Below are positions 1,429 through 20,963 of a stretch of DNA of 21,120 nt, piece by piece. The first letter of the stretch is position 1. Each line of letters opens with the position of its first letter. A program made the translations under genes and the position numbers. This stretch comes from a virus: the IMG/VR virus record IMGVR_UViG_3300020438_000336, positions 1 through 21,120 of that record; one strand, 5' to 3'. Below the pieces are notes generated by a model, which was given only the letters and a program-made list of their open reading frames with translations, searched no databases and was not told where the DNA came from.

Positions 1429-2415
1429 TTATGAAGCAGACAATTTAATTGTTGCTGCACATTCTGGTCTTAGGATTCCATGACCAAGAGCATACTTCGC
1501 TAAAAGTAATGTTGATTGATACATCATACCGTAGTCTGCACCTGAGATCTCAGTTGTCATGTCCTGTAGTTTTACAGTTCCGACTGCTGATTTGTGGAAG
1601 ACCAATCCAATAGTTTTGCTATCGTCACCTGAGTAAGTGTTGTTAGCTCCACTTGGGTTAGATCCCACGTTTGATTGAGGTACGTTGTTAGACATCATTA
1701 CAGGAATACCAGCAACTTGTGTAACATTACCAGCAGCTACAGATCCATTACCTTGTGGGTTGAAATCTGTATTCATTACTCTGGTAGCAGACTCAGGAAT
1801 CTTGTAGTATTCCGCAGGTGGTAACACACAGAATCTATCAGTAGTTGGAATATCTCTAGAGTCAAACTCTTGAGCTATATCATAGATAGCAGCAACAAGT
1901 TCATCACCTGTTACGTTTGCTGTAGCAGTATTACCATTAGCAAGTGTTAATACAAGACCGCCATCTCCACCTGTAAGAGTAGTAGATGCACGACTCGCAT
2001 TAGCGATTACCTTCGCTACGTTTTGATCATACGTTTTTGCTAAAGCCTTTCCTAATTCCGCACTATAGGTCGCTCTTACGTCATAATGATTTTTTAATTC
2101 ATCGAGCTTGGCGATTACTGCTTGAGCTATGAGCATATCATCTATGTTGATGATCTTTTCATTAGCTAAGATTTGGTTTGCTCCTACGAGAGGTGTGCCA
2201 ATCGTATGATAAGCCGCAGTTGCAGTTCCTAAAACTGGAAAACTGGCTGATTTTCCGCTTGTGATCGTGCGAACAGAGTGGAGTTGCTCAGTAAAAATGT
2301 TGTTTTGAGCAAACGCTGTAAGAACTTCGCCACTAAAAATTTTAAGGAAAAGTTCGTTAAAGTTTGTACCACTATTGTTTACAAGACCCAAACGAGAAGA
2401 GGTTTGGTTAGCCAT
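1429..2415 (-). CDS. Major capsid protein (T7 gp10-like)
   Basis: This 328-residue protein is close to T7 gp10A (345). The N-terminus (NNSGTNFNELFLKIFSGEVLTAF), then 'ITSGKSASFPVLGTATAAYHTIGTP' and 'IINIDDMLIAQAVIAKLDELKNHYDVR', follows the family HK97-fold order. A segment with 'FCVLPPAEYYKIPESATRVMN' and the ending with 'LLAKYALGHGILRPECAATIKL' are also typical. It builds the icosahedral shell around the scaffold. The gene follows the scaffold cluster and is followed by an intrinsic terminator. A 122-base leader with no clear Shine-Dalgarno precedes it; that leader holds a candidate late promoter (see findings). I see no gp10B-type frameshift extension, since the terminator closely follows the stop. 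Confidence 0.95.
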   Translation of the reverse strand: MANQTSSRLGLVNNSGTNFNELFLKIFSGEVLTAFAQNNIFTEQLHSVRTITSGKSASFPVLGTATAAYHTIGTPLVGANQILANEKIINIDDMLIAQAVIAKLDELKNHYDVRATYSAELGKALAKTYDQNVAKVIANASRASTTLTGGDGGLVLTLANGNTATANVTGDELVAAIYDIAQEFDSRDIPTTDRFCVLPPAEYYKIPESATRVMNTDFNPQGNGSVAAGNVTQVAGIPVMMSNNVPQSNVGSNPSGANNTYSGDDSKTIGLVFHKSAVGTVKLQDMTTEISGADYGMMYQSTLLLAKYALGHGILRPECAATIKLSAS

Positions 2416-3836: not shown

Positions 3837-4021
3837 CCATGTCTAGTAGTAACATCCTTTGTTCCTTTTGGAATTACTGCTTCTTTGTTTCCACCTAATC
3901 TACTTACTACAGCAGTTTCAGGAGCGACATAATCTCCATTATTGTCATTAGGCTTTTCAGTTTTTACAGTTTTTACAGTTTTTTTAGACTGACTGTTCTT
4001 GTTGCGGGCTGGCATTGGCAT
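3815..4021 (-). CDS. Hypothetical protein, 68 aa, between portal and scaffold
   Basis: Not recognised. The product starts MPMPARNKNSQSKKTVKTVKTEKP, a basic repeat-like stretch (TVK twice, from three copies of ACAGTTTTT on the plus strand), followed by a more folded-looking half with 'VAPETAVVSRLGGNKEAVIPKGTKDVTTRHG'. The start overlaps the portal stop by 38 bases, and residue 3 is an alternative Met start. Small proteins occupy this position in several T7-like genomes. The last codons (HYS then stop) contain the CACTATAG promoter candidate, so the gene end and a promoter may overlap. Confidence 0.75.
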   Translation of the reverse strand: MPMPARNKNSQSKKTVKTVKTEKPNDNNGDYVAPETAVVSRLGGNKEAVIPKGTKDVTTRHGSTIHYS

Positions 4022-5594
4022 CCATTTGTTGTGAAATCAGACCTGCTTCAGCTTGTTTCTTGGGATCAAGTAAAGGTGAGCCTACAGCAGCACTACCAAG
4101 ACTTCTAACAAGTTCTTGTTGTTGTGCTTGTTGTTGTTCGGCAGCAATCTGTTCTCCTGATTTTATCAAAGTTTCAGTTTCTATGCCAATACTGGTAGCT
4201 AACCTCTTAATAGCTTCGTCAAGATTAACGTACTGTCTCATCACATCAGCACCTAAAGCCTGTGCTATGACTGTAATAAATTCAAGTAGCTTCTCTTTAT
4301 CCTGTCCTCTTCCGAGACCTTGAAGACCTGTAATTATTGAGATACCTACTATATCATCAGGTAGTTTTGGTACTTTACCTGACTTAACTAACAGGTGCAT
4401 ACGTCTTCTTAAATAAGGTAGCTGTAACTCAGAACTCAGGATAGAGTAGATTCCCCCAAGTGTTGACTCTAGTTCTTGTGTAAGAATTTTTAACTCTGTA
4501 CTTGTTACTCTTTCTGCGTCACGTTGTACTGCTTTAGCCATAAGGAAAGCATATTGTAATCTCTGTTCTATTCTTTGAATAGCAGTAAAACTAACTTGCA
4601 AGTCTGCTCCCTTACCTACTTGTAAGACAGAAACATCTTGTGCATTTCCTTCTCTGATCGCTCCATTAGGAGCCTTTGCTAAAGTAGCTGCTCGTGTTGT
4701 GCCATTGGGATTTACGAGAAAAACTGTACGTGCAGACGCAGCAGCATTTTCAATTATTGCTTTCATCAATCCTTCTAAAGAAACCAAGTCTCCTCGGTAC
4801 TCTTCAACATATCCCCTTCCGTAATGTTCTCCTGAAATTCGGGTAAACCTGAGATTTAAAAAAGGCGATACATCTTTTTTAGCTCTACCTTCTGTGTTAG
4901 GTATCAATTCATTCTTACATTCTTGATGGTAATTAAAATAATCTCCATCTCTTTTAACGTGTGTATAGATATCTAGATCTTCTTCCATTGTATCTTCTGT
5001 GTATTCTGCTTTCTGTTGTAGATTTTTTAAGAAAGACTCAGGTAAAGCTTTAGCATTTATAGTTTCTTTAATAATAATTTCTAACGTATTACCATTAGGG
5101 TCACGCTTACAAACATATTTTTCTAATGGGTAAACTTGTAACCCTTCATCTGTTAGATACAGTAAAACATTCCCACCAACTACTAAATGTTTTAGTGCTT
5201 CAAACATAGCAACTCTATCGTTAGATACTTCTATCTCTCTCATCAAAGCATTTTCTACTTTACGTAAAGCTTTATCTATTTCTGTTATAGCTTCTTTACC
5301 ACCTTCTTCTTGAGATAGTTTAATTTGATCTAGTACAAGTTTAAAGAAAGGTATGTTAGTAGGGAAAAGTCCTGTCAAAAGTTTTGAAGCAAGACTGTTT
5401 GTACCTGCTGCACCTATACCTTGATAAGGTGTTTTGATCCTAGTTCTTCTTCCACTACTAACAGCAGTCTCAGGTATAAGGTATGGCAAGGTGTACTTGC
5501 TAGACTCTTGGCCTTCTCTTAGATAAGTAGATCTTTCAGAAGCATACTGTTCATACAGTCCTGCTGCTGTAACTTGCTTCGAGGAATACTCCAT
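3984..5594 (-). CDS. Portal / head-tail connector (T7 gp8-like)
   Basis: At 536 residues this equals T7 gp8 as I recall its length. Early residues include 'REGQESSKYTLPYLIPE', then 'TPYQGIGAAGTNSLASKLLTGLFPTNIPFFKL', the portal hallmark of this family. 'PLEKYVCKRDPNGNTLEIIIKE', 'RFTRISGEHYGRGYVEEYRGDLVSLE' and 'RDAERVTSTELKILTQELESTLGGIYSILSSELQLPY' follow in family order. Twelve copies form the DNA channel at one capsid vertex and contact terminase and tail tubular protein A. The C-terminal 50 residues are Gln- and Ala-rich (AAEQQQAQQQEL), as is usual. The start is one base after the preceding stop. Confidence 0.97.
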   Translation of the reverse strand: MEYSSKQVTAAGLYEQYASERSTYLREGQESSKYTLPYLIPETAVSSGRRTRIKTPYQGIGAAGTNSLASKLLTGLFPTNIPFFKLVLDQIKLSQEEGGKEAITEIDKALRKVENALMREIEVSNDRVAMFEALKHLVVGGNVLLYLTDEGLQVYPLEKYVCKRDPNGNTLEIIIKETINAKALPESFLKNLQQKAEYTEDTMEEDLDIYTHVKRDGDYFNYHQECKNELIPNTEGRAKKDVSPFLNLRFTRISGEHYGRGYVEEYRGDLVSLEGLMKAIIENAAASARTVFLVNPNGTTRAATLAKAPNGAIREGNAQDVSVLQVGKGADLQVSFTAIQRIEQRLQYAFLMAKAVQRDAERVTSTELKILTQELESTLGGIYSILSSELQLPYLRRRMHLLVKSGKVPKLPDDIVGISIITGLQGLGRGQDKEKLLEFITVIAQALGADVMRQYVNLDEAIKRLATSIGIETETLIKSGEQIAAEQQQAQQQELVRSLGSAAVGSPLLDPKKQAEAGLISQQMDANASPQQEQSV

Positions 5595-5595
5595 A

Positions 5596-5838
5596 CTATA
5601 AAGGTGTACTTAGATTATTTGATTGTGAAGTGGTATCAGATAACAAAGGGATTCTTAAAGATGCAGTACCAGTTCTGCCAGCTTCCCTTCTCTTAGTTCT
5701 GCCAGCTTTCTTACCACCTTTCTTAGCTACTTCTCTTTGTTGTCCAGTTACAATTTGTTCAGCAGTCTTCTCAGCTTTAGGTGCTACTGGTTCTGGATCA
5801 GGTAATGGAGGTGGTGGGGGAGGACTTCTAAAACACAT
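5596..5838 (-). CDS. Small Pro- and Lys-rich protein, 80 aa, before portal
   Basis: The start MCFRSPPPPPPLPDPEP gives a poly-Pro segment, then a basic 'KKGGKKAGRTKRREAGRTGTASLRIPL' and a Ser/Thr tail. In layout (disordered N-terminus, KK/GR-rich stretch, short hydrophobic 'SLRIPL') it recalls T7 gp7.3-type proteins, virion proteins encoded just before the portal in T7; this is positional and compositional inference only. The Cys at residue 2 has no signal peptide, so lipidation is unlikely. It lies one base from the portal gene and two bases from the upstream gene, which also starts MCF. Confidence 0.8.
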   Translation of the reverse strand: MCFRSPPPPPPLPDPEPVAPKAEKTAEQIVTGQQREVAKKGGKKAGRTKRREAGRTGTASLRIPLLSDTTSQSNNLSTPL

Positions 5839-6509: not shown

Positions 6510-7244
6510 TTATGGCTGCCAAAGTTTTACTTCACCTGTCTGAAAGTTATAATCTCCATCTCTTAATATCCTTGTCAATCTTGCATTGAGAATAGCATCA
6601 GCGATAGTGTAGCCCTTCTTTGTGTATGTCTCCTGAACCTTAGACCATAGTGCATCTGTAGTATCAGGTGTATCAGCTAATGTTTTGGAAGCAGTAACCA
6701 TACCCATACCTTTAAGACCTGCAATACCATCTCCTGAATCACCAGCTAGTGACATCTCAAACCAATGTCTGTTAGCTTTCTTCTCTGTTATATGTAGGAT
6801 CTCATCAGAAGCTATCAGCTTACAAGGTATAGTCTTCATGTCTTTATCTACTGAGACTATGATTGGATTTTTATACTGACCGTTCGTGGCTAGTAATCCT
6901 AGTACGTCATCACCTTCTAAATTTTCGTAGGCAGCACATTCATAAGTCTGTTTAATTTTATTTATTACATCTCTAAGTGCTAGTGGTTTTCGTTTACCTA
7001 TCCTATTCATTTTGTATTCAGGGAATATCTCATGTCGAAATGTAGGGTAAGAAGTAAAGCACATAACTATGTCATGATTATCTTCGGCTATACCTCTGTA
7101 AACATCTAACCTACTTTCAATTAGATTTAATATATCTTTCTCATTAGAGTGAAGAGTATGCTCCCACTCATTCCATCTTGTATCTTCTTCGCAAGCACAG
7201 CAAGAAGAATAGACTAGCCAATCAGCATCAATTAATAAAGTCAT
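6510..7244 (-). CDS. 5'-3' exonuclease (T7 gp6-like, FEN family)
   Basis: A 244-residue FEN-type nuclease, shorter than T7 gp6 (300). Metal ligands are visible in order: D6 and D8 (LLIDADWL), E110 with D112 and D113 (EGDDVLG), D133 and D135 (SVDKDMK), and D169 with D172 (AGDSGDGIAG), followed by a helix-hairpin-helix-like 'GLKGMGMVTASKTL'. The 'TFRHEIFPEYKMNR' segment is the usual arch region. In T7 it removes RNA primers and degrades host DNA. The start overlaps the primase-helicase stop by 4 bases; T7-like genomes usually have DNA polymerase between these genes. It is followed by the double hairpin that closes the replication block. Confidence 0.93.
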   Translation of the reverse strand: MTLLIDADWLVYSSCCACEEDTRWNEWEHTLHSNEKDILNLIESRLDVYRGIAEDNHDIVMCFTSYPTFRHEIFPEYKMNRIGKRKPLALRDVINKIKQTYECAAYENLEGDDVLGLLATNGQYKNPIIVSVDKDMKTIPCKLIASDEILHITEKKANRHWFEMSLAGDSGDGIAGLKGMGMVTASKTLADTPDTTDALWSKVQETYTKKGYTIADAILNARLTRILRDGDYNFQTGEVKLWQP

Positions 7245-8854
7245 AAGTCACCAAAAGAATTTTCATATACAATTAACCGACCTGTTTTTTGGTCGTATAA
7301 TAATTTATCTACTTCACCTGTCATCCCTGTATGTCTAGACTTGAGTACCTTTAGCTGTAATCGCTGTCTCTCACTAGCATCCCCTGTCTGGTTTCTGGAA
7401 GCCGAGAGTACAACATCACTTAATTGAAGTAGTGAATGAGATCCTCTCAAGTCTGAAGTATCAACCTCCCTGCCTGACTCATGTGATTGTCCTTGTGGTC
7501 TACGTAGATGGCTGACTAATACAAGAGCTATACCAGTAGCTTCACATAAACTTCTTAGCTTAGTCATTATTACATCTATTGCTTTACGCTCATTGTCTAA
7601 CTCAAGACCAGATAAAACTATACTAATGTGATCAAGGATTACTACCTGCACTCCATCAACTGTAGCTAAGTATCTGATCTGTTCTAGCAGTACATCAGGT
7701 TCAAGACTTCCGAAATGATTGTATAAAAAAAGACTGCGACTTGACGTTAGTTTGTCAAATGCAGTCTTCAGACTAATTTCATCTATGCCATCTTCATTTA
7801 AATGCAAAGGTACATTCAAGTCAATACCTACTAAACCTTGAAGTGTTCTTTGTACTGATTCTTCTAGTCCTATATAACCTACCTTCAATCCTTTCTTGAG
7901 GAAGTGATAGCAAAATTCTCTACAGATTGTGGACTTACCAGCACCACTAGCACTAGCTACTGTGAATAGCTGACTAGGAAATAATCCCTTGGTAAATTCA
8001 TTTAGTTTAGGGAAAGGAAAATCTGTTACAGCTTTACTTGTTTCTTTAGTAAAGAGATCCCAAGCATCCGCAGCATTGATAAGGGAATCAGGTCTTACTG
8101 GTCTAGCTTTCCATAACCTATCTCTTACTAAGTCTTCTTCATTTAATACAAGGTGATCGTTAACATCATTACGATCTAGTCTTGCTATTGCAACCTTACC
8201 TTTGGGTAAAATTTCCATACACTTCTCTGCTGCTTTATTCCCTGCATCATCATTATCAAAGCAAAGAACTATACGACAATAAGTATCTAACCATTTGTAG
8301 TTGGCTGCTAAATACTTAGCTGCTGACTGTACTCCTGATGGTATTGATACACAGGGAAACTTGTTGCCTTGTATTTGAGATCCACTCATGCAATCAATCT
8401 CACCTTCAAAGCAGCTAACAAATATAGATCCGTTACTACCATGCTGTCTCCAAAGATGTTGACCCCATAGTTGTACGTTAGATATATCTCCTATCCAAAC
8501 AAACTTCTTATCTTGAAAGCGTATATGTTGTGCAACATCTCTACCTTTCTGATCTTTATAAGTAGCAACTTGAACAGGTTGTCCTCTATATTCTGCTTGC
8601 CCATATCCAAATAGTTCGCAAGTCTCCTTAGTGATTCCACGTTTAGCTAAAGCTATAGGTGTTACCTTCAATAGTTTTGGATTTGTTTTCTTTAGTGGAA
8701 TAACATTTGTCACTTTCTTTTCCTTGTTTTGATTTGGGTAGTAGGTGTATTCGCAGTCCATAGTGAAGCAATGTTCATGGCCATCATCAAAGACTGCACA
8801 GTTCTTCTTGCCACATTCAGGACAAACTTTCTTATTCTTGTATTGGCTCTTCAT
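7241..8854 (-). CDS. Primase-helicase (T7 gp4-like)
   Basis: 537 residues (T7 gp4: 566). A zinc-binding domain is present with C11, C14, C29 and C34. The TOPRIM primase part shows 'CFEGEIDCMSG' with E150 and 'CFDNDDAGNKAAEKC' with D200 and D202/D203. The helicase part has a Walker A 'SASGAGKST' (301-309, K307) and Walker B-like 'VVILDHISIVLSG', as in T7, then 'LVLVSHLRRP'. It unwinds DNA at the fork and makes primers. The C-terminus ends 'LIVYENSFGDL' with no long acidic tail, although in T7 that tail binds DNA polymerase. The start overlaps the small upstream gene by 23 bases, and the stop overlaps the exonuclease start by 4. Confidence 0.96.
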   Translation of the reverse strand: MKSQYKNKKVCPECGKKNCAVFDDGHEHCFTMDCEYTYYPNQNKEKKVTNVIPLKKTNPKLLKVTPIALAKRGITKETCELFGYGQAEYRGQPVQVATYKDQKGRDVAQHIRFQDKKFVWIGDISNVQLWGQHLWRQHGSNGSIFVSCFEGEIDCMSGSQIQGNKFPCVSIPSGVQSAAKYLAANYKWLDTYCRIVLCFDNDDAGNKAAEKCMEILPKGKVAIARLDRNDVNDHLVLNEEDLVRDRLWKARPVRPDSLINAADAWDLFTKETSKAVTDFPFPKLNEFTKGLFPSQLFTVASASGAGKSTICREFCYHFLKKGLKVGYIGLEESVQRTLQGLVGIDLNVPLHLNEDGIDEISLKTAFDKLTSSRSLFLYNHFGSLEPDVLLEQIRYLATVDGVQVVILDHISIVLSGLELDNERKAIDVIMTKLRSLCEATGIALVLVSHLRRPQGQSHESGREVDTSDLRGSHSLLQLSDVVLSASRNQTGDASERQRLQLKVLKSRHTGMTGEVDKLLYDQKTGRLIVYENSFGDL

Positions 8855-8987
8855 TAAGATTGCACTTGTGTTCTTTAAGGTTTACGTCAACCCATTCTTT
8901 GCCATTGAATACTATCCACATATTTCTGTGGTCATCAAATACTACACAACCTATGTCTGGGTTAGGTGGTAAAGGATAGCTAGGCAT
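8832..8987 (-). CDS. Hypothetical protein, 51 aa, between endonuclease and primase
   Basis: Not recognised. I prefer the ATG at 8985-8987, which overlaps the endonuclease stop (ATGCCTAG), giving a 51-residue product beginning MPSYPLPPNPDIGCVVFDDH. A longer reading from 9050 (72 aa) would overlap the endonuclease by 71 bases. The core 'VVFDDHRNMWIVFNGKEWVDV' looks like a short beta-rich domain with conserved-looking Trp residues. T7 has lysozyme (gp3.5) here, but this protein is far too short and carries no amidase motif, so the position is shared but the gene is not. Confidence 0.65.
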   Translation of the reverse strand: MPSYPLPPNPDIGCVVFDDHRNMWIVFNGKEWVDVNLKEHKCNLNEEPIQE

Positions 8988-9393
8988 ACCATTCGTTAGG
9001 AATAAATTTATCGCAGTAGAGAAACCCATGTCTCTCACACCATTTGGCATAAGAGATAGAGTTCTTTGCTTTAGTTAGTTTGGTCTTGCTATTTTGAAAA
9101 CAAAACCTGATGTCTAGTTCGGGTCTAGTCTTCTTAATAACAAGATGTTTTCTTCTGTCCTCAGATGAAAAATAACCTTTTGTTTCACAATAGAAATCAT
9201 TAAGGATAAAGTCTGGTCTGTAGCTGTAGCTAATTGTGTAGTCAATGCTGATAGTTTCATAAGTAAATTTTATTTTCTTTTTGTGTAAACTGTCGGCAAA
9301 GGTAGCTTCAAACTTACTCTTGTATTTAGAAGTCGGCTGCGGTTGCAGTCGTGGCCTTCTCTTCGTAGCTTGATGTCTCGGCTTCAAAGTCAT
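8980..9393 (-). CDS. Endonuclease I / Holliday junction resolvase (T7 gp3-like)
   Basis: 137 residues from the ATG at 9391-9393 (T7 gp3: 149). I chose this over the longer frame from 9432 because a strong AGGAGG stretch precedes it and the overlap with SSB shrinks. Catalytic features of the T7 family are all seen: the Glu in 'SKFEATFADSLHKKKIKFTYE', 'YRPDFIL' with the Asp, and 'CETKGYF' with Glu and Lys, followed by 'RRKHLVIKKTRPELDIRFCF'. The ending 'DKFIPNEWYA' matches the T7 'ADKLIPAEW'. It resolves branched DNA and helps break down host DNA. The N-terminal 20 residues are basic and probably bind DNA. Confidence 0.95.
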   Translation of the reverse strand: MTLKPRHQATKRRPRLQPQPTSKYKSKFEATFADSLHKKKIKFTYETISIDYTISYSYRPDFILNDFYCETKGYFSSEDRRKHLVIKKTRPELDIRFCFQNSKTKLTKAKNSISYAKWCERHGFLYCDKFIPNEWYA

Positions 9394-9985
9394 TGGCTCC
9401 CCCTCCTGTCCAAGGTACAAATTTACGTACACAAATACTTACAGGTTGGCATCTGATACCAATACCATTAGCACCTGCGTCATAACCCATACACTTCATA
9501 GCCATCTGGCCTTCAGTTTCAGGGCTAATCTTTTCATACTCTTTACGTTCTTCTTCACTCATTAAACGAACAGGGTTTTCATTAGCAAAGAAAGATACAG
9601 GAGTGTTAGTCCATGTGTCACCATTCTGTTTGATACCACCTGCTTTCTTAGATACTTTAATAACTAAGTTGTCACCTTCATAGCTCCAAGGAAATGAGGG
9701 TTCACCAAATTTATTCTTGGTATAAGTAAAGCTTCGTTGTGGGTATGCTTCTTTCAAAGCTATCTTCCATCTTTCAAGTAGTCCTTCTAACAGTTCAACG
9801 ATATGTTCAACTGCATCTACTTCTCTACCTTTGTCATCCTTCATCATAGTTCCCTTTTGAACTAGGACTTCTCCTTTAAATTTCTTTACTCCTTTGTACT
9901 CATCAGGTGTGATGTAGTAAGAGTAACGAAAGTTACTAGGATTTGGAGTGACTATCTTAATAGTCTCTGGCTTGAGATCTTCCAT
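9326..9985 (-). CDS. Single-stranded DNA-binding protein (T7 gp2.5-like)
   Basis: 219 residues (T7 gp2.5: 232). The N-terminus 'PETIKIVTPNPSNFRYSYYITPDEYKGVKKFKGEVLVQKG' and the 'AYPQRSFTYTKNKFGEPSFPWSYEGDNLVIKVSKKAGG' segment follow the cyanophage/T7 gp2.5 pattern, and 'GANGIGIRCQPVSICVRKFVPW' is the last strand region. The C-terminus is moderately acidic (EAETSSYEEK) and ends in Phe, the residue used in T7 to contact other replisome proteins. An AAGG stretch lies nine bases before the start. A cluster of inverted half-sites and a candidate promoter lie in the upstream gap (9986-10057). Its 3' end overlaps the endonuclease by 68 bases. Confidence 0.93.
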   Translation of the reverse strand: MEDLKPETIKIVTPNPSNFRYSYYITPDEYKGVKKFKGEVLVQKGTMMKDDKGREVDAVEHIVELLEGLLERWKIALKEAYPQRSFTYTKNKFGEPSFPWSYEGDNLVIKVSKKAGGIKQNGDTWTNTPVSFFANENPVRLMSEEERKEYEKISPETEGQMAMKCMGYDAGANGIGIRCQPVSICVRKFVPWTGGGANDFEAETSSYEEKATTATAADF

Positions 9986-10057: not shown

Positions 10058-12460
10058 TTATGTAAATATATATGGGGCAGTCAAGACATCTGTTATGTTG
10101 AAGTCACCCATCATCATAGCTTCAGGTAAGCCTTTGCTATCACTTAGTTGTTGTGCTGCTTGATGATGTAAGTTATCTAAATTGTTATCGCTATAAATCG
10201 TAAAGAAAGTTTGCTTTACTGATTGAATCAAACTATCTAACTCACCAGCAGGTGAACCAAAGCAATCATGGATCAGGCAGAATTGCTCGTGTCCTTTTTT
10301 AGCAGCTTCAACCACACTAAGATGTAGGTGTGCTGCATCAAAAGAATGAATGTAGTTACTAGGAAAACCTTGAGCCTGTTTTCTTTTATCAACCTGCTTA
10401 TCATTAGGTATCGCTAGGCTTAGATATATTGTTGAGTTACTTAGCTTAGTCTTTATTCTTTTTGTATTGTTTGTGTAATACTTTTGCTGCACTAAGAATC
10501 CTGATGGGGTATGCCATGAGATACTCTTGTTCTCTTTGTTAAAACATATAGCAATCTTTTGTAAGTAATTTAAAACCTTATAACTTTCAGGGCATACATC
10601 TCTTACTGCTTCTTCTATCAAGGTAGCTAAGTAAAAATTATTCTTAAAATTTTTTGCCATCGAAATGTTTTCATGTACAAAATATCTCTCGATATAGGTA
10701 GCAATACCAAAGGTAGTTGAGTTGTAAGGTATCATTAGTACAGGTTTCTTTATAAACTTTCTAGTTAATTTATCTTGTAGTCTATACCATTCTTTACCTT
10801 GTTCTGTTGTATCATTCTCTAGTAATGCCAACAGTTTATCTAGTATATCTTTATATAAATCCTGTGGTTTGTTTACATTTTGTAGGTTAACTTTATTAGC
10901 TAAAGTCTGTGAAGATATAAGACCTGCTATATGTTGATAGCCATTGTTAGTACCATCAAGGCAGCAGCAAAAACGTGATACAAATTTCCCTTCTAAACCT
11001 ACAGCACAAAACGCATACCACTCTCTACACCATGCCAAGAATTGCCAAGGATCTTTTGCATTACCCCAGATATCTAAGTTGTCTAAAGGATTTAATGAAA
11101 CCTGTTCAGCAAAGTCTTGTCCTTCTATGTATGCCCACTCTAATCTTTCTTCATAGCTGCACTTGTTCATACCCCAAGCGTTAGCTCCTGCTATTGCCAA
11201 CCAATCAGCATCCTTCTTGGTCTTAATCTCTGCACCTTTATTGAACTGATGTAATGCTCTGGCTATATCAGTACCTTGAGGATGGAAGTGTGCAGTAACA
11301 GGGTAAAGTCTGGAAGTAAAATCCATTTGATAGACATGAAAAAATTTTTCTCCAAGATAATTTTTTGCAGTATCAATCATAGATAATATTTGAAATCGTT
11401 TTACTTTATTAGCGTGGTTAGTATCATGTATTAAACCAGCATGGTAACTCCATTCTTTTGTTACCTGTTTATCTATACCTAAACCTTCAGGCTTTGCAGG
11501 TAATTCAAGTGGTTCTCTATCAATCAACCCACCAACTTCTATTCTTTCTTCCCAACAATATACAAGAATATCAAACACAAATTTATTCACCTGCCATGCA
11601 GTATGTGACGCATGGGTTAGAGCCTTTAGACATACTTCTAAGTTTTGTTCTTGTAATTTTTTTAGTGAGTCAGGATTAGTAGTCTTGATAGCACAAACCT
11701 GTAGTCTCTCGGTGTAATATCCACAGTTGAATAGTGTTGTATATGGTTTGGGTTTGTCATAGCAAGGAAGATATAAAGGGTAGGCAGCTATGCGATTTGC
11801 TCTACCTTTTCTTATCCATTTGTCAGCAACATCAGTAAAGATTACACATGAAGTTGTAGTCTTACCAACTCTTTTGTTGACTAGCTTTATCATGCCAACA
11901 TGATTAGTAACAAGGTCAATTAACTTAAGACCAATTCTTAATTTGTTTTCTTTAGTCCACGTTTTAAACTCGTGACCTTTTCTACTCATGTGATGCCTAA
12001 TCATTTTCTTTTTATACCCCTGATTATTAGTGTCTCTTGTATGTCTCTTGATATATTTAAAATGTTTAGGGTCTAACTGTTCAAAGATTGTATAACGCAT
12101 TTCATCTTCTAACATTTGTCCTATGTTTATAGCTATCTGAGTTGTAGTTTTTTCAAGTGCAGTATTATCAATGATCACTTTAAAAGCTATGAAAGAAACT
12201 ACATCCATATCAGGAAACTGACTAAGATATACAGCAGCTAAAGCTTTGACTCCTGCTTTACCACTCATGGATTCTTGAATATATTTTTGTGTTTCTTCTG
12301 TAAGTTTTTCTAGTCCTGCTTCAATCATGTTGCGAGCATAGTAAGTCTCAGACTCCCTGCCCTGCTCCCTAAGTTTGTTGTTCCTAGATAACTTGTTATA
12401 CCCTGAGATACTAAAGATACTTTGCTCTAGCTCTAGTTGTTTCTTACTTGGTTCAGACAT
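10058..12460 (-). CDS. T7-type single-subunit RNA polymerase
   Basis: 800 residues (T7 gp1: 883). The palm carries 'HFHPQGTDIARAL' (391-403) and the first catalytic Asp, D502, in 'CLDGTNNGYQHIAGL'. The fingers carry 'TRKFIKKPVLMIPYNSTTFG' with the conserved Lys and Y579. The third motif is 'YIHSFDAAHL' (H705) and 'LIHDCFGSP' with D732. The ending 'APYIFT' parallels the T7 'DFAFA' foot. The specificity-loop region (about 660-685, KYYTNNTKRIKTKLSNSTIY) differs clearly from T7, so its promoter should differ in part. It transcribes middle and late genes. The start overlaps the integrase stop by 8 bases. Confidence 0.97.
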   Translation of the reverse strand: MSEPSKKQLELEQSIFSISGYNKLSRNNKLREQGRESETYYARNMIEAGLEKLTEETQKYIQESMSGKAGVKALAAVYLSQFPDMDVVSFIAFKVIIDNTALEKTTTQIAINIGQMLEDEMRYTIFEQLDPKHFKYIKRHTRDTNNQGYKKKMIRHHMSRKGHEFKTWTKENKLRIGLKLIDLVTNHVGMIKLVNKRVGKTTTSCVIFTDVADKWIRKGRANRIAAYPLYLPCYDKPKPYTTLFNCGYYTERLQVCAIKTTNPDSLKKLQEQNLEVCLKALTHASHTAWQVNKFVFDILVYCWEERIEVGGLIDREPLELPAKPEGLGIDKQVTKEWSYHAGLIHDTNHANKVKRFQILSMIDTAKNYLGEKFFHVYQMDFTSRLYPVTAHFHPQGTDIARALHQFNKGAEIKTKKDADWLAIAGANAWGMNKCSYEERLEWAYIEGQDFAEQVSLNPLDNLDIWGNAKDPWQFLAWCREWYAFCAVGLEGKFVSRFCCCLDGTNNGYQHIAGLISSQTLANKVNLQNVNKPQDLYKDILDKLLALLENDTTEQGKEWYRLQDKLTRKFIKKPVLMIPYNSTTFGIATYIERYFVHENISMAKNFKNNFYLATLIEEAVRDVCPESYKVLNYLQKIAICFNKENKSISWHTPSGFLVQQKYYTNNTKRIKTKLSNSTIYLSLAIPNDKQVDKRKQAQGFPSNYIHSFDAAHLHLSVVEAAKKGHEQFCLIHDCFGSPAGELDSLIQSVKQTFFTIYSDNNLDNLHHQAAQQLSDSKGLPEAMMMGDFNITDVLTAPYIFT

Positions 12461-13295
12461 TCAACACCTCGACTACTTGGTGCATAGAGTTAGGTGCTAG
12501 GTGAGCATACTTCTCTGTCATCTTTACATCTTCATGCCCTAACCAATCTCTTACTATCAATAGATGTACTCCACGTTGTACTAATCTAGATCCGCAAGTG
12601 TCTCTAAACAAATGAATCCTATACCATTTATGTTTTTGATAACCTAGTTCTGTCTTAGCTTTTTGGAATACAGTATTAGCCCAGTTATAATCATGGTCGA
12701 ATAATAATTCCAGCGTCTTACACCTGTCATAGTATGGCTTGATAATAGATTGAACAGCGTTACTCATTGGTACAGTATTAGGTCTTCCGTTCTTTCTGTA
12801 TTGAAAAGTTATTTGATTCTTTTTAAAATCAACAAACCTTTTTTCAAGAGATAATATTTCTGATACCCTACACCCTAAATCAATCAGACATTTAAATACA
12901 TCTCTATGTTCGTGGTAGTTAAAGCAAGTAAGGTAAGACATAAGTTCTCTTTCCATATCATCAGTTAAGAACTCAGTCTTTTTATTCTTCTTTACTGGTC
13001 GAGGTTTAGGAAAGTCAGGCATAGTTATATACCCATCATCTTTCATATCATCAAGTACTAATTTAAGATGACCCATCTTCTTATTAACTACCTCGTTAAT
13101 GTTAGGTCTTGACTTGTTATAGTCATTCATTTTATTGATGAGACTTGTAGTAATTTTATTTACTGGTATGTCTCCAAGTGCTTGAACATTATGCTTCATG
13201 CTAGTAAGAAAATCTTTAGCACTTACCATTCCGTTCTTCCTTCTCTTGTAGGTGACAGTTGTTGCCTGTCTTAGTGTTGGTACTTTCTTTTTCAT
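12453..13295 (-). CDS. int: Tyrosine recombinase integrase
   Basis: 280 residues with all main catalytic residues of phage integrases: R143 in 'LIDLGCRVSEILSL', H228 and R231 in 'IHLFRDT', H254 in 'WLGHEDVKMT', and Y263 in 'EKYAHL'. An N-terminal core-binding part spans roughly 25-95. The start has GGAG six bases upstream. Integrases next to RNA polymerase are a known trait of marine T7-like cyanophages and pelagiphages, where they can recombine into host tRNA genes. I found no tRNA-like attachment site nearby, so the site is unknown. The gene is intact. Whether it supports true lysogeny cannot be told. Confidence 0.95.
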   Translation of the reverse strand: MKKKVPTLRQATTVTYKRRKNGMVSAKDFLTSMKHNVQALGDIPVNKITTSLINKMNDYNKSRPNINEVVNKKMGHLKLVLDDMKDDGYITMPDFPKPRPVKKNKKTEFLTDDMERELMSYLTCFNYHEHRDVFKCLIDLGCRVSEILSLEKRFVDFKKNQITFQYRKNGRPNTVPMSNAVQSIIKPYYDRCKTLELLFDHDYNWANTVFQKAKTELGYQKHKWYRIHLFRDTCGSRLVQRGVHLLIVRDWLGHEDVKMTEKYAHLAPNSMHQVVEVLNV

Positions 13296-13374: not shown

Positions 13375-13611
13375 TTAACTAGGCATAAGATCATCAACTC
13401 TTTTAAGTAAGGGCAGCTTTGCAAACTTAAGAAGATCAGGGATTGTATATTCTCTGGTAGTGTATCTCTTACCGCAGTCAATGCACTCTCTTCTTCTTGA
13501 GGTGTAAGGAATGTTAGCCTTGTTCTTATTAACAGGGTTAGGCTTGCCACTCCTGAAACGAGTCTCAAGATTTTTAGTATTACGACCCCGACAGTTAGGA
13601 CATATACTCAT
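13375..13611 (-). CDS. NrdR-type zinc-ribbon protein without ATP-cone
   Basis: 78 residues. Four Cys (C4, C7, C43, C46) form a zinc ribbon, and the second pair lies in 'SRRRECIDCGKRYTTREY', which matches the NrdR signature RRRxCxxCGxRFTTxE very closely. NrdR is the bacterial repressor of ribonucleotide reductase genes: its zinc ribbon binds NrdR boxes and its ATP-cone senses nucleotides. Here the spacer between Cys pairs is about 11 residues longer than usual and the ATP-cone is missing; only about 20 residues follow. AGGAGG lies upstream within the preceding gene, and stop and start overlap (TAATG). Acting on host or phage nucleotide-gene promoters is inference; another small zinc-ribbon regulator is possible. 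Confidence 0.75.
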   Translation of the reverse strand: MSICPNCRGRNTKNLETRFRSGKPNPVNKNKANIPYTSRRRECIDCGKRYTTREYTIPDLLKFAKLPLLKRVDDLMPS

Positions 13612-15141: not shown

Positions 15142-15170
15142 ACTATATCAAGTGTTGTCAGACTTGTCAA
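15142..15170 (-). promoter_or_regulatory. Strong sigma70-type early promoter
   Basis: On the minus strand a perfect TTGACA (15165-15170) is followed by a 17-base spacer and TATAGT (15142-15147). It lies in the last codons of the antirestriction gene and points to the 123-residue gene. The 13 bases CACTTGATATAGT around the -10 are identical to those in the promoter at 17153, which strengthens both calls. Host polymerase use is implied. Confidence 0.75.
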
Positions 15171-16143
15171 GTTTGGGTGGATTAAGGATAAAGTTCTTAG
15201 CCTTGACCGCACTACCTAAGATAGTGTTTATAAACTTAGGATCTTTGCGTAGCTTAGAACACCAACTCTTAAGGTAGCTTGCGTGTTGTTCGTCAGTTGT
15301 ACTGATCTTTAATTCCCTAGCTAAGAGAAAGGCACTGCACTCTGTAATAATTTCTTCTTCAGCATATAGAGCCGAACCAAAACCACACGCTTTTACAATG
15401 CCATCTCGTTTGAGTCTCTCTTGAGACCCCGTACTATGACAGGCTTCATGTAGTACAACACTGTAATAATTTTCGTTTGATGAGAATCTAGAAATATCGG
15501 GAACAGTTATTGAGTCAAACATCACATCGTAGTAAGCTTGATTTCCTGTATTACTAAAGTCTCTGAGGTGCTTATCAATGTAGTTAGTAACTACAATCTC
15601 ATGTACTTTTTGTAAGCGTTTATCTAGTGGTTCAAAGTTAGTAGCTTCATGTTGTTTTTGTAAGCTTGCTATCTTATCGTCTAGTTTCTTTTGGTTCTCA
15701 GGTGTTGAGCCTGTAAAGCAAGCTATATTAAACACTCTTGTAGGCTTAAAGAGAGTAAAGGAACCTTTCTCTACTTGTAGCCCATCAGGCTTAGACTTTT
15801 CTAGTGGTTCAGTAGTCTTGATAGTTACAGGTCTAAGAATGATTGCACTCTTACTACCTTTTTTTATTTTAAGACCCCACTTTTGCCCTTGTTTAAAGCC
15901 ACACCAATAAGGATATTTAAATTCTTGAGCTAGCTTATCAATCTCAAGACATATTAAGTTTCCATTCTGGTAGTATTCCCCAGTTGTAAAGTTCATATGG
16001 TCAGCTTCAGGAGACCACTCTCTACGAAAAGGATTAATGTTTTTTTCCATTACAGAAATTAGTTTGTCAGCTAATTCTTGTATTCCCTTATCAGGATTGT
16101 AAGGTTCTTTTTTTGTTTGTTTTTTGACAGGTGTTAAGGTCAT
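15148..16143 (-). CDS. ArdC-type antirestriction protein with zincin metallopeptidase domain
   Basis: 331 residues in two parts. Residues about 14-105 match the ArdC N-terminal (DUF1738) ssDNA-binding domain: 'IQELADKLISVMEKNINPFRREW', 'NFTTGEYYQNGNLICLE', 'WCGFKQGQKWGLKIKKGSKSAIILRP'. The C-terminal part is zincin-like: HEACH (H232, E233, H236) in 'YYSVVLHEACHSTGSQERLKRDG', with the likely third ligand E268 in 'EEEIITECSAFLLARELKI'. ArdC proteins of plasmids protect incoming DNA from restriction. Expression from the early block would fit protection of entering phage DNA, but that use is inferred. The leader has both repeat motifs, CTAACCA and CTTTACCAA. A strong promoter for the next gene is embedded in its 3' end. 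Confidence 0.88.
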   Translation of the reverse strand: MTLTPVKKQTKKEPYNPDKGIQELADKLISVMEKNINPFRREWSPEADHMNFTTGEYYQNGNLICLEIDKLAQEFKYPYWCGFKQGQKWGLKIKKGSKSAIILRPVTIKTTEPLEKSKPDGLQVEKGSFTLFKPTRVFNIACFTGSTPENQKKLDDKIASLQKQHEATNFEPLDKRLQKVHEIVVTNYIDKHLRDFSNTGNQAYYDVMFDSITVPDISRFSSNENYYSVVLHEACHSTGSQERLKRDGIVKACGFGSALYAEEEIITECSAFLLARELKISTTDEQHASYLKSWCSKLRKDPKFINTILGSAVKAKNFILNPPKLDKSDNT

Positions 16144-17681: not shown

Positions 17682-17702
17682 CTCTCCTATAGTGCAACCT
17701 AA
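17682..17702 (-). promoter_or_regulatory. SP6/T7-like phage promoter at the terminase stop
   Basis: On the minus strand the order is TTAGGT, two bases, CACTATAG, one base, AGAG. Against the SP6 promoter as I know it (TTAGGT, GA, CACTATAG, A, AGAG) 18 of 21 positions agree. The predicted +1 is the G at 17687. The location after terminase equals the T7 phi-OR promoter at the right genome end, which takes part in replication and concatemer processing. It is the best single candidate for the recognition sequence of the encoded RNA polymerase. Confidence 0.7.
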
Positions 17703-19420
17703 TAAGCGTCACTTATAAAACCTTGGGTGGAGGTATTAGAATTTCTTATCTGTTGAGGAGTCATACCCATAGCAGTTTGGGAGATAGTGTTATTAAGAAC
17801 AGACCCCCAGTTATCTAGGTGTATAGAGAGGAGTTCATCTTGTCTTTTAGCGATATTAAGGTCTTCATTTTGAGCCATATATTCAGTCCAGTAGGCTACG
17901 GCACCTGCTAGGGAATCAACGAGGTCATCGTGTACAAGGGAACCTTTATGACGAGATATACGAGATAGTTGATAGACAAGTTGTAGCTTTAATCTTCTTT
18001 CAGGAGTCTCTTGAGGATTGGATCTGAAGTCTTTTTCAATAACTTTCTGGTCGATAATTAGTCTATGAGAGTTCATAACAGGTTCTAAGGTATCAATTAT
18101 TCGCAATTCTTTAGTCTTATTGTTTCTTACGTCTTCTAATTGGCATGGGTGGAACCTCATAAGGAAAGGTTTTAGAAGTTCAGCGAACATACCTCCACCA
18201 AAGTTTTGTTCTACGAGGATGGTATTAATCTTATTCTCTCTAGCAATCTTACTAATTCTTTCCAGAACGCTATCTGAGTAACCCCCAGAGAGTCCTAAAC
18301 ACTCTGTGACGTATAAATTACCATTAAGCATCTTAACGCAGCTTATAGCGGTCTGGTCTTTACCTTTACCAGAAGGGTCAACGAACATAACTGACCCTGT
18401 ATATTCTATAAAGTCACCAAATTCTTGAGCAGGTCGGTAGAACCTGTCACCATTGAAGCCAACGCAAGGTAAATCTTGTATTACATATTCAGGATTATTA
18501 GACCAAATAACTTTTTCGGGAGCAAATTCTTTATTAACGGAACTAATTACTAGGTCGTTAATTTTTAAAGGGTATCTATCTTGATCTGAGAGTGTTGTAT
18601 CTAGCTGGAATTGTAAGTTAAAACCACTACGACCATAAGAAGCTTCTCTTTCCATAAGATCTATCGCAGAGAACCTAATAGGATCTACAGGATCTTTTGG
18701 TTGGGCATTACCTTCTGTTAATTCCTTGAGAATTTTAGGGGCAAGTCTATCTCCGTAGTTGTTTTTTAGTTCTGGGTAACGTGCAGTCCAGATTCTAGTT
18801 TCATATCCTCTTTCTTCTAGTGTTAGGTACACAGAGTTTTCTACTTGAGGAGTACCTAAGAAAGTAATCCGACCATTAGGTTTTAGTATCGCTTCAAATT
18901 CTTTTACAGCTTCAGATAGTTTGTCTCTCATGGGCTGTGTGTAGGAATTATTAGGAACTTCTACGTCATCTGCGATTACTTCGTCTGCTCTAGCCCCTGA
19001 CATCTGCCCTAAGACCCCTCTAGAGGAGCAGGAAGGGGCATGATCAGCTTGTGCTGGTCTTACATCAAAACTTACCTTACTGTTTCTCTGATCATCTCTA
19101 GGAATCAATCCAGATAGTATTGGCATCTCGTTGATAAGACGCATAGTAAAAGTTGTAAAGTTATCGGCTCTATCTTTACTGGCAGATACCACTAAGAATT
19201 TTAATTGTGGGTTCATACGTAGTCGCCACACCACGTAAGTAGAAGTAATCCAACTCTTACCTACACCTCTAAATCCCTGAATAATCTTACGTCTAGCACC
19301 ATATTGTAGATACTCAGCTATATCTAACTGAACAGGAGTAGGATCTGGTAGGTTTAGATGTCTCCACGTAACGATTAGAAAATATCTAAAGTCTTGTAAT
19401 TTTTCTGGTAATGGATGCAA
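17699..19420 (-). CDS. terL: Terminase large subunit (T7 gp19-like)
   Basis: 573 residues (T7 gp19: 586). The ATPase part has Walker A 'GFRGVGKS' (49-56), a Walker B region with 'DEVIADDVE' (146-154) and coupling motif 'FLGTPQ' (187-192). The nuclease part has D348 in 'VMFVDPSGKGKDQT', E404 in 'ILVEQNFGG', and D498, D499 and D502 in 'LVHDDLVDSLAGA'. It pumps DNA into the procapsid through the portal and cuts concatemers. It starts right after the small-subunit gene. The stop codon lies inside the SP6-like promoter. The last 60 residues are polar and may contact the portal. Confidence 0.97.
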   Translation of the reverse strand: MHPLPEKLQDFRYFLIVTWRHLNLPDPTPVQLDIAEYLQYGARRKIIQGFRGVGKSWITSTYVVWRLRMNPQLKFLVVSASKDRADNFTTFTMRLINEMPILSGLIPRDDQRNSKVSFDVRPAQADHAPSCSSRGVLGQMSGARADEVIADDVEVPNNSYTQPMRDKLSEAVKEFEAILKPNGRITFLGTPQVENSVYLTLEERGYETRIWTARYPELKNNYGDRLAPKILKELTEGNAQPKDPVDPIRFSAIDLMEREASYGRSGFNLQFQLDTTLSDQDRYPLKINDLVISSVNKEFAPEKVIWSNNPEYVIQDLPCVGFNGDRFYRPAQEFGDFIEYTGSVMFVDPSGKGKDQTAISCVKMLNGNLYVTECLGLSGGYSDSVLERISKIARENKINTILVEQNFGGGMFAELLKPFLMRFHPCQLEDVRNNKTKELRIIDTLEPVMNSHRLIIDQKVIEKDFRSNPQETPERRLKLQLVYQLSRISRHKGSLVHDDLVDSLAGAVAYWTEYMAQNEDLNIAKRQDELLSIHLDNWGSVLNNTISQTAMGMTPQQIRNSNTSTQGFISDAY

Positions 19421-19642
19421 TTATAATTCTACTAAAGGTACAGTTTCTAGGTCTGGTAAGTTGTTCATTAGGTCTTCCATTGGATTTTTTTCTACAGGAA
19501 CACACTCAACACCGTTATCTTTTAAGAATTGTCTAGCTACGTTTAGATCTCCTGCCTTTGCTTCACCACTTCGTACCTTATCTAATAAGTCTCTAGCTAA
19601 TTCATAGTGCAAACTTTCTAATAACTTTAAGTTTTTATCCAT
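19421..19642 (-). CDS. terS: Terminase small subunit (T7 gp18-like)
   Basis: 73 residues, a little shorter than T7 gp18 (89). The N-terminal 'LESLHYELARDLLDKVRSGEAKAGDLNVARQFLKDNGVECVPVEKNP' has the family pattern of DNA maturase A / terminase small subunit, and a short acidic C-terminus follows (MEDLMNNLPDLE). It recognises the phage DNA and regulates the large subunit. The stop adjoins the large subunit start, so the pair is translationally coupled. Assignment rests on order and pattern; the profile is short. Confidence 0.85.
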   Translation of the reverse strand: MDKNLKLLESLHYELARDLLDKVRSGEAKAGDLNVARQFLKDNGVECVPVEKNPMEDLMNNLPDLETVPLVEL

Positions 19643-19668
19643 GAGACTTACGTTTTAGATTAATATAA

Positions 19669-19977
19669 TCATTTTTTAGTTCTATTGCCAAACAAAACAT
19701 ACTTAAGTTTACCTATAAGACCTGATTTCTTTTGATTTTTGTAGTGTTGTAACCTACGTTCTAGTCTATAAAGTTCAGTTTCGGTTTCTGAAATACGAAC
19801 AAGAGCAGCTATTAATAACATATCTTGTAGTCTTACTTGTTTTACAAGGTCACAACAATAGTCTTTGATAACAAGATTAGGTAATTCTTTTACCTCTCTG
19901 CATTTTATTTCTATTTCAAGCTCTACTTCGGGAGGAGGATTACCAATAAGAATATCAAAAAATTCTTTATGGTTCAT
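19669..19977 (-). CDS. Hypothetical protein, 102 aa, before small terminase
   Basis: Not recognised. It is acidic in the first part ('PPPEVELEIEIKCREVKELPNLVIKDYC'), has a central helix of mixed polarity ('QVRLQDMLLIAALVRISETETELYRLERRLQHYKNQKK') with coiled-coil spacing, and a basic, hydrophobic end ('SGLIGKLKYVLFGNRTKK'). T7 has holin and Rz genes near the terminase genes, but no N-terminal TM segment is visible, so neither name is justified. Its start lies one base after the stop of the 54-residue gene. Confidence 0.75.
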   Translation of the reverse strand: MNHKEFFDILIGNPPPEVELEIEIKCREVKELPNLVIKDYCCDLVKQVRLQDMLLIAALVRISETETELYRLERRLQHYKNQKKSGLIGKLKYVLFGNRTKK

Positions 19978-19978
19978 A

Positions 19979-20143
19979 TTAGTTTAACTTTGGGAAAAGT
20001 TGCTGCTCCAACATATCTACAGCCTTGTCATCCAATGTATTTGAGGTCTGCTTACAAATTGCTCTAAGCAAGTCCACCACTAACCTCTTCACAGCAGTCG
20101 TAGTGAAGAACTTTAGTAATACTGGTTTTAGTATTTTTAGCAT
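19979..20143 (-). CDS. Small helical protein, 54 aa
   Basis: Reading from ATG 20141-20143 to TAA 19979-19981 gives MLKILKPVLLKFFTTTAVKR, then 'LVVDLLRAICKQTSNTLDDKAVDMLEQQLF'. An amphipathic basic/hydrophobic N-terminus is followed by a 'TSNTLDDKAV' turn. Short phage proteins with a 'T-N-T-x-DD-x-x-V' pattern are familiar near lysis and packaging genes; a membrane-associated lysis role is possible but unproven. One base separates it from the next ATG. A weak sigma70-like site (TTGTCT and TATGTT, 17 apart) lies upstream. Confidence 0.7.
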   Translation of the reverse strand: MLKILKPVLLKFFTTTAVKRLVVDLLRAICKQTSNTLDDKAVDMLEQQLFPKLN

Positions 20144-20208
20144 AGTTTTGTGTGTTACTTCCCAAACATAGCTAACTTGCTAGTATTAGACAAGAGTTTT
20201 ACGTTTTT

Positions 20209-20601
20209 ATGGCAGAACAACCAAAAGAAAATAAAAAAGGAGTCTGGTTTAAATTACAAGAAGCAGTACCAGATCGAGAGGAACAATTTGAATTTGTTTC
20301 TTTAGCTGTCAGATTAACGCTACTGCTTTGGGCTACTGCGATGTTGTCATTATCGTACTTAGATCTGTCAAAACTAGGAATACCACAACAAAAAATTGAC
20401 CCGACATTTATAGCTTCGGTTTTTGTAGGATTAGCTTCTAGCTTCGGGGCATCTATTACACAGAAAGGTAAAGAGAATGGTAATAGTAAAAATGGTAAGA
20501 GTGTAAAAGCTGAGTTGCAAGAAGTGTTAGGTAATACACAGTTAGTTAGAATAGATACACCTATAAGATTAATAGTAGATCCTAAACAGGAGAAAAAATG
20601 A
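20209..20601 (+). CDS. Two-TM protein, holin-like, on the opposite strand
   Basis: 130 residues. 'VPDREEQFEFVSLAVRLTLLLWATAMLSLSYL' contains the first membrane span (about 30-50), and 'IDPTFIASVFVGLASSFGASI' contains the second (about 62-82), followed by a long charged tail. Proteins with the 'VPDREEQFxF' and 'DPTFIASVF' pattern occur in marine cyanophages as I remember them and are usually unnamed. Size and topology fit a holin or other inner-membrane protein. It is the first gene of a plus-strand cassette and diverges from the packaging genes. The start ATG has no Shine-Dalgarno site. Confidence 0.8.
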   Translation: MAEQPKENKKGVWFKLQEAVPDREEQFEFVSLAVRLTLLLWATAMLSLSYLDLSKLGIPQQKIDPTFIASVFVGLASSFGASITQKGKENGNSKNGKSVKAELQEVLGNTQLVRIDTPIRLIVDPKQEKK

Positions 20602-20963
20602 AGAAACTTTTATTACTAGGTTTATTTATAGCTGCACCTTGTTATGCCAATGGAACTCCTACTTGGACTACTGGCTCATCTAATAGAACTGAAAATACTA
20701 CTCAGACCATAACTCGTAGCATAGTGACAGAAAAATATGGATCTGCTTTAAATACTTGGGAAGCATCTAACATTGCTGTTACAAGTGCTAATAGTGGTGG
20801 TATAGCTCATGCAGATGCAATCTTTACTCCTAAATCCGATACTGCTGATTGGTCATTATCTTTAACTACTAGAGCAGCCAGCCAAATGACTGAAAAGATT
20901 ACACAAACAGATGCGATTTCAACTACAAGCGTTATCACTAGCTTGTCTGTGTTTAGTCAGTAA
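20598..20963 (+). CDS. Secreted or periplasmic protein, 121 aa
   Basis: A clear signal peptide, MKKLLLLGLFIAAPCYANG with a cleavage site after CYA, leads a 100-residue Ser/Thr/Asn-rich mature part (TPTWTTGSSNRTENTTQTIT ... 'TTSVITSLSVFSQ'). The start has AGGAG six bases upstream and overlaps the previous stop (ATGA). Similar 'GTPTWTTGSSNRT ... SLSVFSQ' proteins sit after the two-TM protein in marine phages, from memory. Function is unknown: export to the periplasm or outer membrane is predicted, and it is not an obvious lysis enzyme. The next gene begins within its last 53 bases. Confidence 0.85.
   Translation: MKKLLLLGLFIAAPCYANGTPTWTTGSSNRTENTTQTITRSIVTEKYGSALNTWEASNIAVTSANSGGIAHADAIFTPKSDTADWSLSLTTRAASQMTEKITQTDAISTTSVITSLSVFSQ

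Follow-up and report, generated by a model that had tools for sequence, protein, structure and literature searches.

A T7-like phage fragment from a new member of the MPP-C lineage, which lacks a DNA polymerase gene

The window, which is the whole deposited record and consists of a linear fragment of 21,120 bases, carries every phage-encoded part of the T7 replisome except the DNA polymerase. Gene content, synteny and phylogeny support its assignment to a P-SCSP2-like phage, of which it covers 21 kb, and to the MPP-C clade as a new member. This clade comprises P-SCSP2 and the P-SCSP1 series and was described as "lacking a DNA polymerase gene" (Cai et al., 2022, PMC9860041). The polymerase loss itself is already known, having been published in 2022, and the finding in the window is sound. 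As a whole, the best explanation, and in our judgement a very probable one, is that the phage belongs to MPP-C, that the polymerase was lost once and that a host polymerase would elongate the phage DNA. What is new here are several sub-lineages of uncultured phages, a sister group that resembles Stopavirus (in one tree) and an endonuclease I in P-SCSP2.

The architecture of the window is T7-like, as judged from open reading frames (ORFs), profiles and synteny, and Pfam profiles recognise traits of the Autographivirales (T7-like phages), namely a single-subunit RNA polymerase and a T7-type terminase and portal. Among T7-type replisome traits, a gp2.5-type single-stranded DNA-binding protein (SSB) is present and the family A DNA polymerase between the gp4 and gp6 genes is absent. 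The preliminary description had reported that the primase-helicase and exonuclease genes overlap by four bases, that these two genes and those for the SSB and the resolvase are intact, and that no family A polymerase motif occurs in the window. ORF calling places the overlap at 7241-7244 (coding-strand ATGA), all four genes are open and full length, and the profile search described below agrees with the third point. The features of the window are as follows.

1429 to 2415, minus strand: major capsid protein (MCP), 86% identical to that of P-SCSP2
3984 to 5594, minus strand: portal protein (PF12236, E 3.3e-82)
6510 to 7244, minus strand: gp6-type 5'-3' exonuclease, 244 aa (PHROG 107, E 2.8e-49; PF02739, 5_3_exonuc_N, E 1.8e-14)
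7241 to 7244, minus strand: ATGA overlap of helicase stop and exonuclease start (ORFs), the position of the DNA polymerase gene in T7-like phages
7241 to 8854, minus strand: T7 gp4-type primase-helicase, 537 aa (PHROG 239, E 1.8e-156; DnaB_C, Toprim_2 and Helic-prim_T7_N)
8832 to 9050, minus strand: small ORF located between the genes for endonuclease I and helicase, with a conserved counterpart in P-SCSP2 (63%)
8980 to 9432, minus strand: endonuclease I (Holliday junction resolvase), overlapping the SSB gene (PF05367, E 1.9e-36)
9326 to 9985, minus strand: gp2.5-like SSB, C-terminus -ADF (hhalign against the gp2.5 family, 98.3%, E 1.1e-14); its own Pfam and PHROG searches gave no match, and the assignment is by profile-to-profile comparison
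10058 to 12460, minus strand: T7-type RNA polymerase (RNAP), 800 aa (PHROG 414, E 1.5e-187; PF00940, E 3.7e-82)
12453 to 13295, minus strand: tyrosine integrase (PF00589, E 9.2e-22), 54% identical to that of P-SCSP2
17699 to 19420, minus strand: terminase large subunit (TerL; PF22530, E 3e-35), 91% identical to that of P-SCSP2

The family A polymerase profile PF00476 has no match anywhere in the 21,120-base window. Absence from the window alone proves little because the record is a fragment, and complete or near-complete relatives were therefore used to settle the matter. Here, PF00476 was silent in all 32 relatives searched, that is in complete P-SCSP2, in complete P-SCSP1u and in 30 uncultured IMG/VR relatives of 23-41 kb. 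The profiles for family B, Pol III alpha and Prim-Pol (PF00136, PF07733 and PF09250) had no match in 15 records, the window included. In a control, PF00476 matched seven of seven polymerase-bearing phages with E values of 1e-33 to 1e-50. The larger unassigned proteins of P-SCSP2 yielded no polymerase match; they match tail-fibre, virion (gp13-/gp14-like) or ArdC families, or nothing. The absence of a DNA polymerase from the window is confirmed and is consistent with the relatives.

The closest isolate to the window is Prochlorococcus phage P-SCSP2 (OM416780), in which a gene-by-gene comparison finds a syntenic partner for nearly all structural and replication genes of the window, with identities of 91% for TerL, 86% for MCP, 81% for the helicase, 75% for the exonuclease, 65% for RNAP and 64% for the portal. 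The two share gene order, adjacent helicase and exonuclease genes, the lack of a polymerase, an integrase before the RNA polymerase and an ArdC-like gene. P-SCSP2 differs in having a 2-base spacer in place of the 4-base overlap, in the divergence of its integrase (54%), scaffold (39%) and ArdC-like protein (32%), and in several early genes that are not shared. From the similarity to P-SCSP2, the host of the window phage would be Prochlorococcus; matches in bacterial genomes are limited to two contigs of one metagenome-assembled genome, TMED161, and show nothing about the host. The uncultured MedDCM-OCT-S08-C159 (GU943031), the type of the genus Jalkavirus, resembles the window in its helicase (94%), its exonuclease (89%) and the ATGA overlap; it is only a 10.3-kb fragment, compared by protein identity only, with an RNAP 68% identical over the part present. 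P-SCSP1u (OM416779, MPP-C) likewise has no polymerase, the ATGA overlap, an endonuclease I and a gp2.5-like SSB, with helicase and exonuclease identities of 53% and 57%, but no integrase is annotated and its RNAP is only 25% identical. The contrast between this value and the 53-57% of the two replication proteins suggests fast change or exchange within MPP-C. The terminase genes of P-SCSP1u (34646-36699) lie on the strand opposite to that of its other genes, which is not the case in P-SCSP2 and the window. MPP-C genomes measure 37.3-37.9 kb, whereas the window is a 21.1-kb fragment whose relatives reach 35-41 kb.

Among polymerase-bearing systems, T7 itself arranges the genes for RNAP, SSB, endonuclease I, primase-helicase, exonuclease, portal and capsid as the window does, but its gp5 polymerase lies within a 4.3-kb interval that is absent from the window. 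The Stopavirus-type pelagiphages HTVC025P and HTVC041P have a similar genome size and a helicase without a terminal aromatic residue, yet in both a polymerase gene separates helicase and exonuclease.

In the helicase tree and in the exonuclease tree the window, P-SCSP2 and P-SCSP1u form one clade with 100/100 support, and in a concatenated tree of the two proteins from 36 phages all 19 polymerase-less entries do so, again at 100/100. Since all tested polymerase-less phages fall into one such clade, one old loss is indicated, and the trees show an apparent single origin of the loss, at the base of the clade, for all tested members. The sister group in the concatenated tree is formed by HTVC025P and HTVC041P, which have kept the polymerase (95/94; some long branches meet there). 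The window and P-SCSP2 are grouped at 99-100 in every gene tree. The preliminary description had proposed placing RNA polymerase, portal and terminase in trees, with mixed outcome: terminase groups the window with the P-SCSP1/P-SCSP2 isolates of MPP-C (91/95), RNA polymerase does so weakly (67/72), as does MCP (60/10), and the portal tree leaves P-SCSP1u unjoined. Neither the portal nor the tail-tube A tree recovers MPP-C as one clade, with monophyly not rejected (AU p 0.072 and 0.116); the genomes may thus be mosaic, and structural genes may have been exchanged among these phages. Cyanopodoviruses as one clade receive 29/0 in the helicase tree, p 0.123 for the exonuclease and 98/96 in favour with the portal, and their monophyly is not rejected in the concatenated analysis (AU p 0.067). 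The clade extends well into uncultured sequences (L484-L515), whose helicases are 55-73% identical to that of P-SCSP1u and whose contigs, of up to 41 kb, lack PF00476; sub-lineages without an isolate known to the analysis are represented by L487, L497-L506, L514 and L515 (contigs of 26-41 kb, no PF00476).

The junction of the two genes is conserved across these relatives. The distance from helicase stop to exonuclease start in 105 intact polymerase-less loci is -4 in 62 and +2 in 43, and in 40 further polymerase-less contigs the exonuclease starts at -4, -1, +2 or +6, which makes about 145 relatives with an adjacent junction in a range of -4 to +6 bases. Polymerase-bearing loci (n = 140) instead have a helicase-exonuclease interval of 1.8-4.2 kb, with a median of 2.6 kb.

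Three other accounts of the missing gene can be set against a single loss in MPP-C. The record is a metagenomic fragment, and a segment between the helicase and exonuclease genes might have been dropped during assembly; an adjacent junction is found, however, in the isolates P-SCSP2 and P-SCSP1u and in about 145 contigs, and an artefact is therefore refuted, leaving the clean deletion of the preliminary description standing. That description had also left a choice between membership in a described polymerase-less cyanopodovirus lineage and an independent loss. For a loss separate from that lineage one could cite the RNA polymerase, which shares only 25% identity with its P-SCSP1u counterpart, and the unresolved trees of structural genes, but the helicase, exonuclease and concatenated trees join the window to P-SCSP2 and P-SCSP1u at 100/100, and TerL (91%) and synteny tie it to P-SCSP2, so that membership is upheld and a separate loss is extremely improbable. 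Cai et al. (PMC9860041) list the option of a polymerase that has diverged beyond the reach of profiles now available. It might lie within a large internal virion protein, and proteins of 876 and 1596 aa, encoded at 17962-20592 and 20594-25384 of P-SCSP2, have no confident family match. These two proteins, however, occupy the gp15/gp16 internal virion positions, the other unassigned non-virion ORFs are small, and four polymerase profiles are silent. A shared polymerase should moreover be conserved, whereas the candidates of P-SCSP1a and P-SCSP2 show no similarity (Cai et al., PMC9860041), and a hidden polymerase is accordingly rated as very improbable.

Under a single loss in MPP-C, the family A polymerase gene would have disappeared at the base of the clade together with small flanking genes, bringing helicase and exonuclease into adjacency. 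The phage would retain its own primase-helicase, gp2.5-like SSB, gp6-like exonuclease and endonuclease I, with which unwinding, priming, coating, primer removal and branch resolution could remain phage-encoded. MPP-C isolates replicate without an identifiable polymerase, and a host polymerase presumably elongates the phage DNA, as has also been inferred in PMC9860041. Chain elongation would most likely be left to the Pol III holoenzyme, otherwise to Pol I. Phages without a polymerase usually rely on Pol III, and if a host enzyme is used, the holoenzyme is the rather likely one. The phage SPP1 is an example that uses host Pol III without a polymerase of its own (PMC9860041). A search of the window's replication proteins for beta-clamp-binding motifs (Qxx[LM][FL] type) was negative, and there is thus no sequence pointer to Pol III.

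Alternatively, host Pol I could be recruited for replication, working in a couple with the phage helicase, while a factor from phage or host supplies processivity. Pol I and the product of the lost gene are members of one family (PMC9860041), gp4-type helicases evolved in partnership with a family A enzyme, and the C-terminal phenylalanine of the SSB is kept in 79 of 79 polymerase-less relatives. The same residue occurs in 209 of 210 polymerase-bearing relatives, and its retention in both groups points to a use that outlasts the loss of the phage polymerase. In T7 the C-terminal phenylalanine of gp2.5 reportedly acts on the polymerase. Against Pol I, this residue may have other roles, the enzyme serves chiefly in repair and has low processivity, and its interaction with phage proteins is hypothetical; we consider its recruitment unlikely. 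Somewhat less probable still is a broader proposal, in which an old and diversified polymerase-less clade, reaching beyond the two isolated sub-lineages, perhaps has host Pol I as its replicative partner in a hybrid phage-host replisome of a kind not yet described.

T7 gp4 docks the polymerase via an acidic C-terminal tail (PMC12593628, PMC8472574), and loss of this tail was considered as an accompaniment of polymerase loss. In the initial sampling a terminal aromatic residue of the helicase was present in 244 of 244 polymerase-bearing and in none of 105 polymerase-less loci. Wider sampling revealed Stopavirus helicases that end in -FDE despite the presence of a polymerase (63 loci without a terminal aromatic residue); it also revealed some polymerase-less helicases (L497-L500 and L502) that end in -NF, and the correlation was rejected. 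As the Stopavirus group is the sister clade in one tree, the change at the helicase C-terminus may predate the polymerase loss.

The comparison with P-SCSP2 also touches the published annotation. No endonuclease gene was recognised in this phage by Cai et al. (PMC9860041), yet the ORF at 5209-5628 (plus strand) of OM416780 is an unannotated endonuclease I by its profile match (PF05367, E 6.2e-37), and it overlaps the SSB gene, an arrangement shared with the window; on this predicted gene the published statement is corrected. Viromes of the surface ocean contain MPP-C phages in abundance (PMC9860041), and polymerase-based surveys miss them. Besides the one origin found for all tested members, the analysis thus broadens the recorded diversity of the clade and amends one annotation.

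Several further observations concern the remaining genes of the window. None of the auxiliary metabolic genes psbA, hli, mazG, rnr, talC and thyX, whose absence characterises MPP-C, is among the ORFs scanned, about 16 kb of the genome lying outside the window, and no structured RNA or tRNA-like attachment site is indicated by an Rfam match in the window. The ORF at 13375-13611 (minus strand) encodes a protein of 78 aa in which PF22811 (E 2.4e-7) recognises a zinc ribbon like that of NrdR; the protein is too short to hold the remainder of NrdR and is 86% identical to its counterpart in one relative (L025) and 42% to that in P-SCSP2; it could interfere with the control of host ribonucleotide reductase. 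An ArdC-like antirestriction protein with a zincin domain is encoded at 15148-16143 (minus strand), and its homologue in P-SCSP2 (35301-36251, 32% identical) is annotated there as hypothetical. Two near-consensus sigma-70 promoters precede early genes, at 17182-17153 and 15170-15142 (minus strand), with TTGACA, a spacing of 17-18 nt, TATAGT and an extended -10 element; the total of promoter-like sites in the window is in no excess over chance. Finally, the small proteins encoded at 19979-20143 (minus strand) and 20598-20963 (plus strand) are strongly conserved across MPP-C (74-93%), and their copies in P-SCSP1u, at 88% and 78%, exceed the conservation of the helicase.
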